Part shown: positions 14,716 through 30,513 of the stretch, one piece after another
Layout: each line of letters starts with the position of its first letter
Position numbering within the stretch: position 1 is the first letter of the stretch
Assembly: GCA_030065235.1 (NCBI GenBank)
Contig: JASJDC010000015.1
Location: 1-64,000, forward strand
DNA: 64,000 nt
Reading direction: 5' to 3'
Source: Alphaproteobacteria bacterium
Lineage (GTDB): Bacteria; Pseudomonadota; Alphaproteobacteria; UBA8366; Aestuariispiraceae
Position numbers and translations under genes: made by a program
Notes under the pieces: model-generated
What the model was told of the DNA's origin: nothing
Databases searched by the model: none
Seen by the model: only the letters and a program-made list of their open reading frames with translations

Positions 14716-14763
14716 AAATGTAAAGAATGTTATCATTAAGGGATGATAACAAAATTTACATTT
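14716..14763. promoter_or_regulatory. Nested 48-bp palindrome upstream of hupS
   Basis: Two inverted repeats share one centre: outer arms AAATGTAAA (14716-14724) and TTTACATTT (14755-14763), inner arms TGTTATCAT (14728-14736) and ATGATAACA (14743-14751), separated by 3-base gaps and a TAAGGG core. The centre lies about 110 bp upstream of the -24/-12 promoter, the normal distance for an enhancer-binding activator, so this is the best candidate for the HupR-like protein's upstream activating site. Confidence 0.7.
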
Positions 14764-14831
14764 ACACCCTGATTAGACCCTATTTCTTCACCCGGTATTG
14801 ATTATCCATTTGAAAATAAACGGAAAATTCA

Positions 14832-14844
14832 AAATGTAACATTT
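14832..14844. promoter_or_regulatory. AAATGT-A-ACATTT palindrome abutting the -24 element
   Basis: A 13-base palindrome with the same AAATGT/ACATTT half-sites as the outer arms at 14716 and 14755, ending on the first base of the -24 hexamer. A protein bound here would touch the sigma54 promoter, so it may serve repression or looping (inference). Confidence 0.45.
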
Positions 14845-14859
14845 GGCACATTGCTTGCT
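14844..14859 (+). promoter_or_regulatory. Sigma54 (-24/-12) promoter of hupSL
   Basis: TGGCAC (14844-14849), five bases, then TTGCT (14855-14859) gives an exact GG-N10-GC sigma54 promoter. Transcription should begin near 14870, leaving a leader of about 75 bases before hupS. The presence of a GAFTGA-containing activator 3 kb upstream supports it. Confidence 0.85.
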
Positions 14860-14943
14860 CTTATGGGGGAGAAGTCTATTCAGGCTTTGTTCGTTGCGGC
14901 CGGTCCGGCTCTTGGGCCGTCGCGTCTCATTGGGGAGGAAGGT

Positions 14944-27544: not shown

Positions 27545-28584
27545 ATATGATGTCGAAGCCGCGCCGATTGACGGCGGACCGCATCACGCTGGCCCATGGC
27601 GGCGGCGGCAAGGCGATGCGCGACCTGATCGAGGATGTCTTCACCAGCGTCTTCAAACCGGCCGGCATGGAGGATCAGGCGCGCCTGACATCGGAAGCCT
27701 TGCGAGAAGAGGGCGCGCAGCTGGCCTTTACGACCGACGGGTTCGTGGTCGATCCGATCGAGTTTCCCGGCGGGGATATCGGCAAGATTGCGGTGTGCGG
27801 CACGGTGAATGATCTCGCCGTCGGCGGGGCGCGGCCGCTCTGTCTCTCCGCGGCCTTCATCATCGAGGAGGGGACGGATGTCGCCCTGCTGCGACGGATC
27901 GCGGCTTCGATGCAGCAAGCGGCGGACGAGGCGGGCGTCGCCATCGTCACCGGCGACACGAAGGTCGTCGGCAAGGGCTCGGGCGATAAAGTCTTTGTGA
28001 CCACGTCGGGCGTCGGGGTGATCCCGCCGGGACGCGCGCTGTCCGCGGATCGAGTGCGGCCCGGCGATGTCGCGATCGTCAATGGCGTCTTGGGCGATCA
28101 CGGCGCGGCGATCCTGGCGGCGCGCGGCGACATGGCGTTGAGCACCGATATTCAATCGGACTGCCAATCCTTGAACGGCCTGATGGAGGCGGTCATCGCG
28201 GCGGCTCCGAACCTGCGGGCGGCGCGTGATGCGACGCGCGGCGGTCTCGCCTCGGCGCTGAATGAGATTGCCGATGCGGCGGGGGTTGGGGTCGAGCTGG
28301 ACGAGACCACGGTGCCGCTGCGGCCGGAAGTGAACGGAGTCTGCGAAATCCTGGGTCTTGACCCGCTCTATCTGGCGAATGAAGGCACGCTGGTTCTGTT
28401 CGTCCCGCAGCACGAGGCGGAGGCGGCGCTGGCGGCGATGAAGGCGCATCCAACGGGCGAAGGGTCGGTGGCGATTGGGCGCGCCGTGGAGACCCGGCCG
28501 GGAACGGTGGTGATGAAGACACTGTTCGGTGGTAGCCGGATTGTCGACATGCTGGTCGGCGAGCAACTGCCGCGCATCTGCTAG
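27541..28584 (+). CDS. hypE: Carbamoyl dehydratase HypE
   Basis: 347 residues of the PurM-like ATPase family: LAHGGGGKAMRDLI at the N-terminus, FTTDGFVVDP, and the C-terminal LPRIC whose Cys receives the carbamoyl group from HypF and is dehydrated to thiocyanate, the cyanide donor. Full length with all key residues. Confidence 0.97.
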   Translation: MNMMSKPRRLTADRITLAHGGGGKAMRDLIEDVFTSVFKPAGMEDQARLTSEALREEGAQLAFTTDGFVVDPIEFPGGDIGKIAVCGTVNDLAVGGARPLCLSAAFIIEEGTDVALLRRIAASMQQAADEAGVAIVTGDTKVVGKGSGDKVFVTTSGVGVIPPGRALSADRVRPGDVAIVNGVLGDHGAAILAARGDMALSTDIQSDCQSLNGLMEAVIAAAPNLRAARDATRGGLASALNEIADAAGVGVELDETTVPLRPEVNGVCEILGLDPLYLANEGTLVLFVPQHEAEAALAAMKAHPTGEGSVAIGRAVETRPGTVVMKTLFGGSRIVDMLVGEQLPRIC

Positions 28585-28622
28585 CGACGGCCGTTCGTTG
28601 GAAAAACGTGGGGGAGAGTGTT

Positions 28623-29354
28623 GTGGAAGGCTTTTTGTTTCTGGGTTTCTTAATCGGCATGCAGCATGCGCTGGAAGCTGATCACGTCGCCGCCGTCGGC
28701 GCGATGGCCACGCAACGTGGGGTGAGCCGGCGCGGGCTGACCTTGCGCGGGGCGGTTTGGGGGCTCGGCCACACAATTACGCTGTTCGCCATCTGCAGCG
28801 CGGTCCTTCTGTTGGGCGTGACTCTGACCGACCAAACGGCCGCGGCGCTGGAGTTCGGCGTCGGCGTCATGCTGGTGCTGCTGGGGGTCGATGTGGTGCG
28901 AAGGATGCGGGGCAAAAAGGTGCATTTCCATCTCCATCACCATGGCGAAACGTCGGACGGTGCGCGGCCGCATATCCACGCCCATAGCCACGCCAACGAC
29001 CCGGCGCCGCATGCCACGGCGCGGCACGATCATACGCATAAAGCGGGTTTCCCGCTGCGCGCTTTGCTCATCGGTCTGGTCCACGGCGCGGCCGGGTCGG
29101 CGGCTCTGTTGGCCTTGGCGGTCGCCTCGACAAAGGACCCGGCGACGGCGGTCGGCTATGTCGCGCTTTTCGGCGTCGGCTCGATCCTCGGCATGGCCTT
29201 CCTGACCTTCGCCGCTTCGTGGCCGCTGTTGGCCGCCGAACGTCACGCGCTGCTTCTGCATCGCGGCCTGTCATTCGGCGCGGCCGGGCTGGCGCTGATC
29301 CTCGGCGTCTCGGTGATGATCGAGACCGGTCCGACCGCCTGGGGGAGCTTCTGA
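28623..29354 (+). CDS. NicO/UreH-like nickel transporter
   Basis: About 243 residues from GTG 28623, which has GGGGAG six bases upstream; an in-frame GTG at 28608 would sit on the ribosome site. Six or so membrane helices are seen. The first carries HALEADHVAAV, the H-x-x-x-A-D-H motif of nickel/cobalt permeases, and the central loop (about residues 95-135) is histidine rich (HFHLHHHG, HIHAHSHAN, HDHTHK). Placed directly before hypA and hypB, the nickel-insertion proteins, so it most likely supplies nickel for HupL. Confidence 0.85.
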   Translation: MEGFLFLGFLIGMQHALEADHVAAVGAMATQRGVSRRGLTLRGAVWGLGHTITLFAICSAVLLLGVTLTDQTAAALEFGVGVMLVLLGVDVVRRMRGKKVHFHLHHHGETSDGARPHIHAHSHANDPAPHATARHDHTHKAGFPLRALLIGLVHGAAGSAALLALAVASTKDPATAVGYVALFGVGSILGMAFLTFAASWPLLAAERHALLLHRGLSFGAAGLALILGVSVMIETGPTAWGSF

Positions 29355-29596
29355 TGCACGAGCTTGGCTTGTCCCGCAATGTGGTGGCTATCGTCAGCGA
29401 TCACGCCAAAGGGCGGGCGGTGAAGCGGGTGACCCTGTCGGTCGGCCCCTTGGCCTGCGTCGAAGAACAGGCCTTGAGCTTCTGTTTTGGCGTCGTCGCC
29501 GAAGGCACGGTCCTTGAAGGCGCGGCGTTGGAGTTCATTCAGGCCGAAGGCGATGAGTTCAAAATCAAAGAGTTCGAATATGAGGAGGCGGCGTAA
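29354..29596 (+). CDS. hypA: HypA lacking the zinc-finger loop
   Basis: 80 residues against about 113 for usual HypA. The nickel-binding N-terminus MHELGLS and the core [20 protein letters not shown] are intact, and the C-terminus [12 protein letters not shown] matches the family end, but the roughly 33-residue loop with two CxxC zinc knuckles is absent. The reading frame is clean and overlaps both neighbours by one base or more, so this is not a frameshift. HypA normally receives nickel with HypB and loads the large subunit; this version must do so without the structural zinc site. Confidence 0.85.
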
Positions 29597-30513
29597 TGTG
29601 CGGCACATGCGGGTGTTCCGATCCGGACAACCAAGTCACTCTGACCGATATGCAAAGCGGCGGACGCGCGGTGATACGTGAAGGGGCCATCGCTGGCCAT
29701 GCGCATGATCACGACCATGGCCATGGCCATGACCATGACCATGACCATGACCATGACCACAGCCACGATCATGATCACCATCATCACCATGATCATGCGC
29801 ATGACCATCATCACCACGATCACGCGCACGGCCATGGTCCCGGTTCGGTTGTCTCACTGGAACAGGCGGTGCTGGCGAAGAATGACGAACTGGCCCAGCG
29901 CAATCGTGGTTGGTTCGAAGGGCGCGGCGTGTTGGCGCTGAACCTGGTCAGCTCGCCTGGGGCCGGCAAGACGACGCTGTTGGAGCGTACCATTCAGGAA
30001 TTGGCCGGGGCGCGCGACATTTGCGTCATCGAAGGCGACCAGATGACGGTGAACGACGCCGAGCGAATCCGTGAGGCGGGCGCCCGCGCCGTTCAGATCA
30101 ATACCGGCGCTGGCTGTCACCTCGAAGCCGACATGGTGGCCGAGGCGGTCAAACAGCTCGACCCGCAAACAGGCGCCATTCTGATGATCGAGAATGTCGG
30201 CAATCTGGTCTGCCCGGCCATGTTTGATCTGGGCGAGCGGATGAAGGTGGCCGTGATCTCGACGACAGAGGGCGAAGACAAGCCGCTGAAATACCCGCAC
30301 ATGTTCCGCGCCGCCGATCTGGTGCTGATCAACAAGATCGACCTGGCGCCGTACGTCGATTTCGACGCGGCGCAATGCGAGTCGAACATCCGGACGGTCA
30401 ACCCGACGGCGACGATCCTTTCCGTTTCGGCCAAGACGGGCGAGGGAATGGGAGACTGGCTCGCCTATCTGGAAGAGTTGCATAGCGAGCGGGGTCGCCC
30501 GGCGGCGGAATAA
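29596..30513 (+). CDS. hypB: Nickel GTPase HypB with polyhistidine region
   Basis: 305 residues. N-terminal MCGTCGC is the high-affinity nickel CxxCxC motif. A 46-residue segment with 27 histidines follows, a nickel store, then the G domain: Walker [31 protein letters not shown] (metal site Cys-His), [11 protein letters not shown] and NKIDLAP. HypB hydrolyses GTP to drive nickel delivery through HypA. Last gene of the hyp run; 890 bases of non-coding DNA follow. Confidence 0.97.
29698..29835 (+). repeat. Histidine-codon low-complexity tract in hypB
   Basis: 46 codons, 27 of them CAT or CAC, alternating mainly with GAC/GAT/GGC, including four successive CATGAC units near 29728. Such a tract can expand or shrink by slippage without breaking the frame. 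Confidence 0.9.

Follow-up and report, generated by a model that had tools for sequence, protein, structure and literature searches.

The locus described below bears on how group 2a [NiFe] hydrogenases outside the mycobacteria reach quinones. The solved group 2a enzyme uses a HucM stalk, and nearly all searched genomes of the lineage described here are without HucM. A member of this lineage nevertheless takes up H2 below the atmospheric level, according to the available part of PMC10305171. The locus analysed here comes from an Alphaproteobacteria bacterium (assembly GCA_030065235.1) and lies within positions 1 to 64,000 of contig JASJDC010000015.1. These 64,000 nucleotides are referred to as the window. 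The locus is very likely a sigma-54 operon for a cytoplasmic group 2a uptake hydrogenase, which would oxidise trace H2 and feed the quinone pool of an alphaproteobacterium that has photosynthesis genes and no nitrogenase. Two of its small genes, which encode proteins A and B, touch the question of the electron route.

Gene content and order

The group 2a [NiFe] hydrogenase genes of the window, followed by accessory and hyp genes, form one run on the plus strand, to which all coordinates below refer. The genes named in the original prediction are all present in this run, and the alphaproteobacterial host that it proposed is supported. The protease, the 100-aa orf, the GmhA-like SIS-domain protein and the sigma-54 activator gene are not mentioned in it.

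The genes for HupS (14944..15906) and HupL (15935..17530) are followed by those for protein A (17662..18111) and protein B (18153..18485). A hydrogenase maturation protease in the HupW position comes next (18485..19045; TIGR00072 above cut-off, Pfam HycI), and its start overlaps the stop of the protein B gene. A conserved 100-aa orf with no family assigned in Pfam (19042..19344) and a TPR protein in the alr0691 position (19455..20444; a weak TPR_12 match below cut-off) are each matched in 66 of 81 related loci. Small membrane protein 1 (20471..20665) has two hydrophobic stretches and is weakly asr0689-like (NCBIfam asr0689_fam, 25.8 bits with a cut-off of 95). Small membrane protein 2 (20679..20900) has a hydrophobic stretch and is matched in 58 of the 81 loci. 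The NifU-Rieske fusion HucE (20905..21867; Pfam NifU and Rieske, both above cut-off) and an NHL-repeat protein (21881..23059; Pfam NHL) complete an asr0689-alr0693 set, which stands between hupSL and the hyp genes and in which the similarity of the first membrane orf is weak.

The hyp genes begin with hypF (23056..25413; TIGR00143 above cut-off, start inferred) and hypC (25404..25697; Pfam HupF_HypC). A GmhA-like SIS-domain protein (25704..26420; Pfam SIS_2, gmhA below the equivalog cut-off) is encoded between hypC and hypD (26417..27544; TIGR00075 above cut-off). These are followed by hypE (27541..28584; TIGR02124 above cut-off) and a probable nickel transporter with hydrophobic stretches (28608..29354). 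The transporter gene was predicted, but its Pfam NicO match (23.9 bits) is below the curated cut-off of 27.7 bits. The run ends with hypA (29354..29596) and hypB (29596..30513; TIGR00073 above cut-off, N-terminal His-rich stretch). The complete hyp set that had been predicted is therefore present, with a reservation for HypA. This protein has 80 aa, covers positions 1-68 of the 112 in the Pfam HypA profile and lacks the CxxC pairs that form the zinc site. Maturation may therefore depend in part on another HypA encoded elsewhere.

Eighty further loci were fetched, 67 of them proteobacterial. Within the reach of the contigs, the majority of the 81 related loci keep the gene order, and the arrangement is therefore more than chance.

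Promoter and start of hupS

By its sequence, hupS is preceded by a sigma-54 promoter. The element TGGCAC-N5-TTGC (14844..14858) has a single exact match in the window, with 0.06 expected, and its pattern follows the sigma-54 consensus. The window contains a gene for a sigma-54 dependent activator (10418..11920; Pfam Sigma54_activat and HTH_8) whose position resembles that of hupR. A similar gene is found in 62 of the 81 loci, and also in Sphingopyxis alaskensis. Among the 45 listed, it is mostly directly upstream of hupS. Two minus-strand genes separate the activator gene from hupS in the window.

The most likely start of hupS is the ATG at 14944, which is preceded by a Shine-Dalgarno-like GGAGGAA. 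The predicted locus had been given as beginning at 14716. The TTG at 14851 lies within the promoter element, so 14716 is not the start of the hupS gene.

Classification of HupS and HupL

In comparisons with PDB sequences, the best solved relative of both subunits is the Mycobacterium Huc. HupL scores 610 bits with Huc and 116 bits with group 1h, and HupS scores 533 and 128 bits, respectively. HupL also matches Pfam PF00374. By both bit scores and tree, HupSL is nearer to Huc and to its counterparts from cyanobacteria than to hydrogenases of groups 1 and 2b. The original prediction assigned the enzyme to group 2a and named a HupL outside this group as its refutation; the window HupL falls within the proteobacterial 2a lineage in a tree built by a quick method from 39 hand-picked rows, of which 38 were found. 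In this tree, the pair-bearing clade has an SH-aLRT value of 82, below the support mark of the tool, and the 2b outgroup has a very long branch, for which the tool warns of long-branch joins. The enzyme is, on sequence grounds, a group 2a [NiFe] hydrogenase. The Azorhizobium 'endo-hydrogenase', considered as possibly relevant, is a group IV enzyme and was rejected.

The CSGN motif of HupS and the DSCLVC motif of HupL are found as predicted. No Tat-like motif is seen by eye in HupS from the start at 14944 or from that at 14851, in agreement with the predicted lack of a Tat signal. The HupL and HupS alignments keep 87 and 83 rows after omission of short, other-strand or stop-containing rows; both include plasmids, and the HupL rows also include the window and the outgroup. 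Nine ligand cysteines of HupS are invariant in all 83 rows. They amount to three for each cluster, as in HucS with its three [3Fe-4S] clusters. Their assignment to individual clusters presumably follows that of solved hydrogenases. The menaquinone site of the Huc small subunit contains Lys212, Tyr229 and Tyr301, according to the available part of PMC10017518. The equivalents of these three residues are likewise invariant in all 83 HupS rows, whether or not HucM or the pair is present.

The HiPIP-like pair

Proteins A and B are homologous to each other (hhalign 100%) and share the spacing C-x2-C-x9-C-x14-C. The four cysteines are invariant throughout both pair alignments, which contain 56 (A) and 55 (B) distinct locus sequences in addition to that of the window, with starts partly chosen by script. 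A cysteine-free helical N-terminal half is likewise conserved. Neither protein has a hydrophobic stretch. No Pfam or NCBIfam model matches A or B, and Pfam HIPIP (PF01355) has no match in A, in B or elsewhere in the same genome.

The profile of A matches HiPIPs at 74% (hhalign), and ten other proteins used as a control, a mild one as they are single sequences, reach 1.1% or less. The profile of B reaches only 6%. The predicted structure of B has a pLDDT of 94.9, and all 12 of its listed structural matches are HiPIPs, with middling scores (Z 4.4-5.7); the Foldseek match to a HiPIP is weak (E 0.2). The model of A has no match in the PDB with Z of 2 or more (VIA-align), and neither single-sequence nor profile search finds a PDB relative of A. 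The predicted HiPIP-like nature of both proteins agrees with the profile of A and with the model of B, the scores being weak. A and B are probably small, HiPIP-like, electron-carrying proteins.

Among 385 alphaproteobacterial genomes, the pair is restricted to the same 4 as this HupL lineage, a count with positives from two families and up to 12 first-pass candidates scored per genome. The pair and this HupL lineage also co-occur on the same 12 plasmids, which are not independent since seven are near-alike Bradyrhizobium plasmids. The pair is not seen in 13 loci, of which 11 are cyanobacterial, one (L084) belongs to an uncultured proteobacterium and one is uninformative because its contig (L083) stops within hupL.

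Distribution of HucM

HucM (DUF1641, PF07849) is missing from 29 of 30 pair-bearing genomes, and in the 30th it is located away from the hydrogenase. For S. alaskensis, Runella and Hymenobacter, the search covered the plasmid only. It has no match in the genome of the window, which is 98% complete. In the Mycobacterium, Thermus and Sulfobacillus plasmids, a HucM match adjoins hucSL. The pair is not found in these 2a-bearing plasmids or in those of Bacteroidota. The predicted Huc-type content therefore stands for the class of the enzyme, which is Huc-like, and not for HucM, which is missing, or for the pair.

DUF1641 is found in two genomes: once in that of L010, which has the pair, and three times in that of L084, which does not. 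None of these four stretches matches the hydrogenase loci. Three of the four are flanked by frames that, by eye, resemble FAD-dependent, sulfide-quinone-reductase-like oxidoreductases. The match in L010 indicates that a genome with the pair can also encode a HucM-like protein. The cyanobacterial loci contain neither HucM nor the pair, and the pair therefore need not substitute for HucM.

Genome context and alternative explanations

The genome of the window contains two photosynthetic reaction-centre genes and has no match to RuBisCO. The CO dehydrogenase model TIGR02416 has 11 matches, the best at 654 bits and none above the cut-off of 991. A Hox-like hydrogenase is additionally present and may take part in H2 turnover. 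No nifH match lies above the cut-off in this 98% complete genome, and the two stronger sub-threshold matches are BchL and BchX. This argues against an enzyme that chiefly recycles nitrogenase-made H2, as its cyanobacterial relatives do. Such a function is very improbable, even with several rhizobial loci among the related ones and with the H2-recycling role that the available part of PMC7784904 gives to the group 2a HupSL of cyanobacteria. Least probable of all is that the enzyme belongs to group 1h or to another class outside 2a. Group 1h was the initial guess, and its NHL, NifU and SIS neighbours resemble those of the window; it was dropped, as the tree speaks against it and the Huc bit scores are far above those of 1h.

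In the proposed mechanism, HupL would split H2 at its NiFe centre, with the hyp genes, the protease and the nickel transporter serving to mature the enzyme. By analogy with Huc, the electrons would cross the three HupS clusters and reach quinone at a site close to the distal one. Since the HucM stalk is missing, contact with the membrane quinone would have to be made in another way, and the candidates are the HiPIP-like pair, the Rieske protein and the two small membrane proteins. Tentatively, the proteobacterial 2a enzymes may form a coupling variant of their own, in which they are HucM-less and pass electrons from HupS to ubiquinone through a cytoplasmic, lineage-confined, heteromeric pair with a HiPIP fold.

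The accessory genes were predicted to be an electron-transfer module. This is only one of two readings, because the Nostoc 'extended hyp operon', which consists of NHL, TPR, NifU and tiny membrane genes, is proposed to act in assembly of the small subunit (PMC2408588, available part). The accessory set, including A and B, could thus assemble HupS and its clusters without electron transfer, with HupS reducing quinone directly. This possibility, itself doubtful, is favoured by the NifU domain and by the cyanobacterial set being taken as assembly factors in the same source. A maturation role is left open by the authors of HucE, in the available part of PMC6883350. The invariance of the quinone-site residues irrespective of HucM or the pair, and the cyanobacteria that are without both, point in the same direction. 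However, the pair is lineage-confined while the HupS clusters are alike in all, the B model resembles only a redox-protein fold and HucE ends in a Rieske domain. It is rather unlikely that A and B serve as structural docking proteins with zinc or nothing bound, for instance as membrane or oligomer adaptors that replace HucM. The absence of a Pfam HIPIP match, the low HiPIP scores of B in profile, Foldseek and Z, the unmatched A model and the conserved cysteine-free half are consistent with docking; the exclusively HiPIP matches listed for B, the profile of A and the four invariant cysteines argue against it.

If the pair does carry electrons, the HiPIP fold, which to our knowledge is otherwise known from periplasmic carriers, would here be used in the cytoplasm. 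The two pair genes provide a short candidate list for the electron route, and S. alaskensis, a marine, non-pathogenic strain with a plasmid and measured uptake, carries both. The association of the pair with this HupL lineage and its HucM-less makeup is new here. The locus also points to likely use of trace H2 alongside reaction-centre genes, in a genome without nitrogenase or RuBisCO matches. For one alphaproteobacterial member of this lineage, H2 uptake below the atmospheric level has already been published (PMC10305171, available part).

Comparison with known systems

The Mycobacterium Huc (HucSLM) and the window enzyme share the HupS/HupL family, the cluster cysteines and the quinone-site residues, and their loci share NifU, NHL and hyp genes. 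Mycobacterium has HucM/DUF1641 upstream of hucS and no HiPIP-like pair, whereas the window has the reverse. The size of Huc is 833 kDa. The Nostoc hupSL locus resembles that of the window in its TPR, two small membrane proteins, NifU, NHL and hyp genes (available part of PMC2408588). In cyanobacterial loci, the pair is present in 0 of 11, and the accessory genes are on the opposite strand in the six loci where they are found. Periplasmic HiPIPs (PF01355) have a similarly spaced four-cysteine motif and a fold that resembles the one predicted for B. Unlike them, A and B have no family-model match, no visible export signal and an extra helical N-terminal half.

Acidithiobacillus ferruginosus L073 shares the pair, SIS/GmhA and NifU-Rieske with the window, and its HupL is 74% identical. 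For A. ferrooxidans, the available part of PMC7735108 describes hupR, GmhA, nifU-Rieske and one putative HiPIP, and refers to older work in which the 2a enzyme is mostly soluble with two subunits. This fits a window enzyme without a stalk. Acidithiobacillus, unlike the window organism, is an acidophile and autotroph.

The F plasmid of S. alaskensis RB2256 carries a 2a locus with the same gene order from the sigma-54 regulator to hypB. It contains hupSL, two small hypotheticals with the locus tags SALA_RS16235 and SALA_RS16240, the protease, an orf of ~100 aa and a 'hypothetical' in the place of the TPR protein. These are followed by two tiny orfs, a NifU family protein, NHL, hypF, hypC, SIS, hypD, hypE, one gene in the place of the transporter, hypA and hypB. 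Its HupL is 85.5% identical to that of the window and its HypA is likewise short. The S. alaskensis locus is on a 28.5-kb plasmid, and the two minus-strand genes between the regulator and hupS are a feature of the window that is absent there. During growth, S. alaskensis consumed H2 to below the atmospheric level of 0.53 ppmv, and two other marine strains with subgroup 1l showed no H2 consumption, according to the available part of PMC10305171. Use of H2 to below the atmospheric level is described for three further species with 2a enzymes in the available part of PMC7784904.

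Hydrogenase class and phylogeny

Among PDB entries, HupL (the catalytic subunit) is most similar to the large subunits of the mycobacterial hydrogenase Huc (610 bits), followed by a Desulfovibrio-type enzyme (201 bits); the Ralstonia group 1h enzyme scores 116 bits. The small subunit, HupS, scores 533 bits against Huc and 128 bits against group 1h. In the HupL tree (38 sequences, including a 2b outgroup), the window sequence groups with Tistlia, Pelagibius and Kiloniellales sequences (SH-aLRT 87). This group is nested in a clade of Proteobacteria and one Acidobacteria MAG (SH-aLRT 82), beside the Cyanobacteria. 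The clade is separate from the Mycobacterium-Thermus-Sulfobacillus (99) and Bacteroidota (100) branches and from the 2b outgroup. Bit scores and phylogeny are thus congruent with the original prediction of a group 2a, Huc-type hydrogenase, and the locus adds one more typical example to an enzyme family that is already known and widespread. One methanotroph with such an enzyme is presumably of the Methylocystaceae type, and it is among the alphaproteobacterial group 2a examples already published (PMC12319191).

All 83 HupS sequences compared share the nine cysteines expected to ligate three clusters, with three cysteines for each. They likewise all share the three residues equivalent to those reported to bind menaquinone in HucS (PMC10017518), so the quinone site is kept with or without the stalk protein HucM.

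Gene order, promoter and regulator

The hydrogenase operon (14944 to 30513, plus strand) encodes HupS, HupL, the small proteins A (17662..18111) and B (18153..18485), a maturation protease, a conserved 100-aa protein, a TPR protein, two small membrane proteins, a NifU-Rieske fusion, an NHL protein, HypF, HypC, a GmhA-like SIS protein, HypD, HypE, a probable nickel transporter, a short HypA and HypB, in that order. Many of these genes have overlapping or abutting ends, as in an operon. The 100-aa protein (19042-19344), whose start overlaps the protease stop, has no Pfam family and is matched in 66 of 81 related loci; the Mycobacterium, Runella and Hymenobacter plasmids have unnamed small genes in its place. 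HypA (29354-29596) is 80 aa long and lacks the zinc-site CxxC pairs, as does that of Sphingopyxis alaskensis RB2256 (L094:23122-23364). Both CxxC pairs are kept in HypA of a related genome (G009) and of the Thermus and Sulfobacillus plasmids, and the window's own genome has a HypA-like frame with a zinc site near Hox-like genes.

An exact copy of the sigma-54 promoter consensus, TGGCAC-N5-TTGC, is located at 14844-14858. It is the only one in the window (shuffles expect 0.06), and because of its position the HupS start is most likely 14944. Of 77 loci, 34 have a looser version of the pattern upstream of hupS, and 28 of these have it 64 to 114 bases ahead of the start. A sigma-54 activator gene, identified by its Pfam domains, is located at 10418-11920, and similar genes (E<=1e-20) occur in 62 of the 81 related loci. 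Because such activators have an AAA domain in common, this similarity alone is a weak argument. Position is a better one: the gene lies shortly upstream of hupS in most of the 45 loci listed and is annotated ahead of hupS in S. alaskensis. Two minus-strand window genes (12209-14673), encoding a pentapeptide plus TPR protein and a 310-aa orphan, separate activator and hupS; neither has a match in the 81 loci (tblastn, E<=1e-20).

Tad/Flp pilus genes (31855-43950) apparently come next after the operon, with a TadE/G-like protein by Pfam and CpaA- and CpaB-like frames by eye. Genes for a phage terminase large subunit, head-tail adaptor and major head protein (55878-63683) lie ~25 kb from the hydrogenase locus. 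A FeeM-like N-acyl amino acid synthase adjoins a fatty acid desaturase (4832-6613).

A HiPIP-like pair without HucM

In Huc, HucM serves as the scaffold and also builds a tube that has been proposed to lead menaquinone to HucS, 94 angstrom off the membrane (PMC10017518). On an M. intracellulare plasmid, the DUF1641 protein encoded upstream of hucS finds HucM in the PDB with 122 bits, so PF07849 (DUF1641) is suitable as a search model. Another DUF1641 gene is listed in a 2a operon of Parageobacillus (PMC12976888), and in Bacillus a DUF1641 protein partners a menaquinone-linked formate dehydrogenase (PMC8808070). Across 48 genomes or records, PF07849 has matches in five: at hucSL on the Mycobacterium, Thermus and Sulfobacillus plasmids, and away from the hydrogenase loci in the L010 and L084 genomes (with and without the A/B pair, respectively). 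In three of four places in these two genomes (L107, L108, L110), DUF1641 stands beside FAD-dependent, sulfide-quinone-reductase-like frames (by eye), possibly a further enzyme using a quinone-linked adaptor.

No PF07849 match was found in 29 of 30 pair-bearing genomes (29 proteobacterial and one acidobacterial, many of them MAGs), the window's included; the exception is L010. There is likewise none in 11 of 11 cyanobacterial genomes, or on the S. alaskensis, Runella and Hymenobacter plasmids, where the plasmids only were covered. The prediction that the gene content matches Huc does not hold as put, since HucM is absent from the window's own genome by PF07849. On the HupL tree, one change suffices for the pair and one for hydrogenase-linked HucM. 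The pair is a marker for a lineage with HucM-less loci. It need not replace HucM, because the Cyanobacteria have neither. The real interest of the locus is this HucM-less, pair-bearing architecture; in the open-licence literature, no report was found that describes the pair as characteristic of a lineage or that notes the absence of HucM.

A and B are mutually homologous (hhalign 100%), and the family follows hupL in 68 of the 81 loci (tblastn). The copies come in adjacent pairs, apart from L009, L059 and L070, where the contig stops at that point. The 13 loci without it are 11 cyanobacterial, one distant proteobacterial MAG and one truncated contig. Among 385 genomes, the B profile matches exactly the four with this HupL, twice in each, an independent count that agrees with the tblastn result. 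In 72,556 plasmid records, B is found in 12, at two places apiece. By accession these are the plasmids with HupL identity of at least 79%, and seven are near-alike Bradyrhizobium plasmids. B has no match on the five 2a plasmids with HupL at 54-56%. In the plasmid records listed, A and B are annotated as hypothetical.

The cysteine spacing of A and B (C-x2-C-x9-C-x14-C) is similar to that of short alphaproteobacterial HiPIPs. The predicted structure of B is confident (pLDDT 94.9), and Foldseek ranks a HiPIP first (E 0.2, probability 0.82), with a probability of no more than 0.06 for each of the remaining 28 matches. On realignment of the model, all 12 entries among the matches listed are HiPIPs, with middling scores (Z 4.4 to 5.7); what counts here is the absence of non-HiPIP entries among those matches rather than the Z values. 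The A model (pLDDT 81.7) has no structural match at Z 2, profile matches to HiPIPs reach 74% for A and only 6% for B, and the Pfam HIPIP model matches neither. A and B are for these reasons termed HiPIP-like proteins rather than HiPIPs. The original HiPIP-like reading is supported by the B model and the A profile. For A. ferrooxidans, a putative HiPIP adjoining hupLS has been suggested, along with the NifU-Rieske protein, to be a likely missing connection to ubiquinone (PMC7735108); as an idea, a HiPIP relay is thus already published for one species. Deletion of mycobacterial hucE, which encodes the NifU-Rieske fusion, lowered H2 oxidation, and its authors kept both electron transfer and maturation as options (PMC6883350).

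Distribution and role

The genome scan recovered 104 relatives. The best 80 span 71-89% best identity and comprise, judged by record title, 67 proteobacterial, 11 cyanobacterial and two acidobacterial loci. Occurrence is patchy: HupL is present in four of 385 evenly drawn genomes of the class, the window's own counted. Among 98 relatives it is matched in the own genome and G009 (89%, same family), and two matches at 35-40% are other types. HupL matches occur in 37 plasmid records, 17 of them at 53.8% identity or more, including one of 28.5 kb. The patchy occurrence and plasmid locations suggest horizontal spread of the hydrogenase locus.

Recycling of nitrogenase-derived H2 is unlikely, because no nifH match exceeds the cut-off in the own genome; the stronger sub-threshold matches are BchL and BchX. 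RuBisCO was not found there, so mixotrophy fits better than Calvin-cycle autotrophy. The genome has two reaction-centre genes; on contig C1 (189082-208106) their products accompany BchL and BchX, both scoring over their cut-offs, and neighbouring frames look BchH- and BchC-like by eye. A second [NiFe] hydrogenase, on contig C10 (L091:6421-11525), comprises HoxE/F-, HoxU-, HoxY- and HoxH-like genes and a protease. It adjoins PorA/PorB-like genes, its subunit matches are under curated cut-offs, and its gene content points to group 3d.

Trace-H2 uptake is the likely role of the window hydrogenase, by analogy with S. alaskensis RB2256, which drew H2 down below the atmospheric level during growth (PMC10305171). 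Its locus has a gene order identical to that of the window and a HupL that is 85.5% identical. The accessory set of the window is that of the Nostoc extended hyp operon (PMC2408588).
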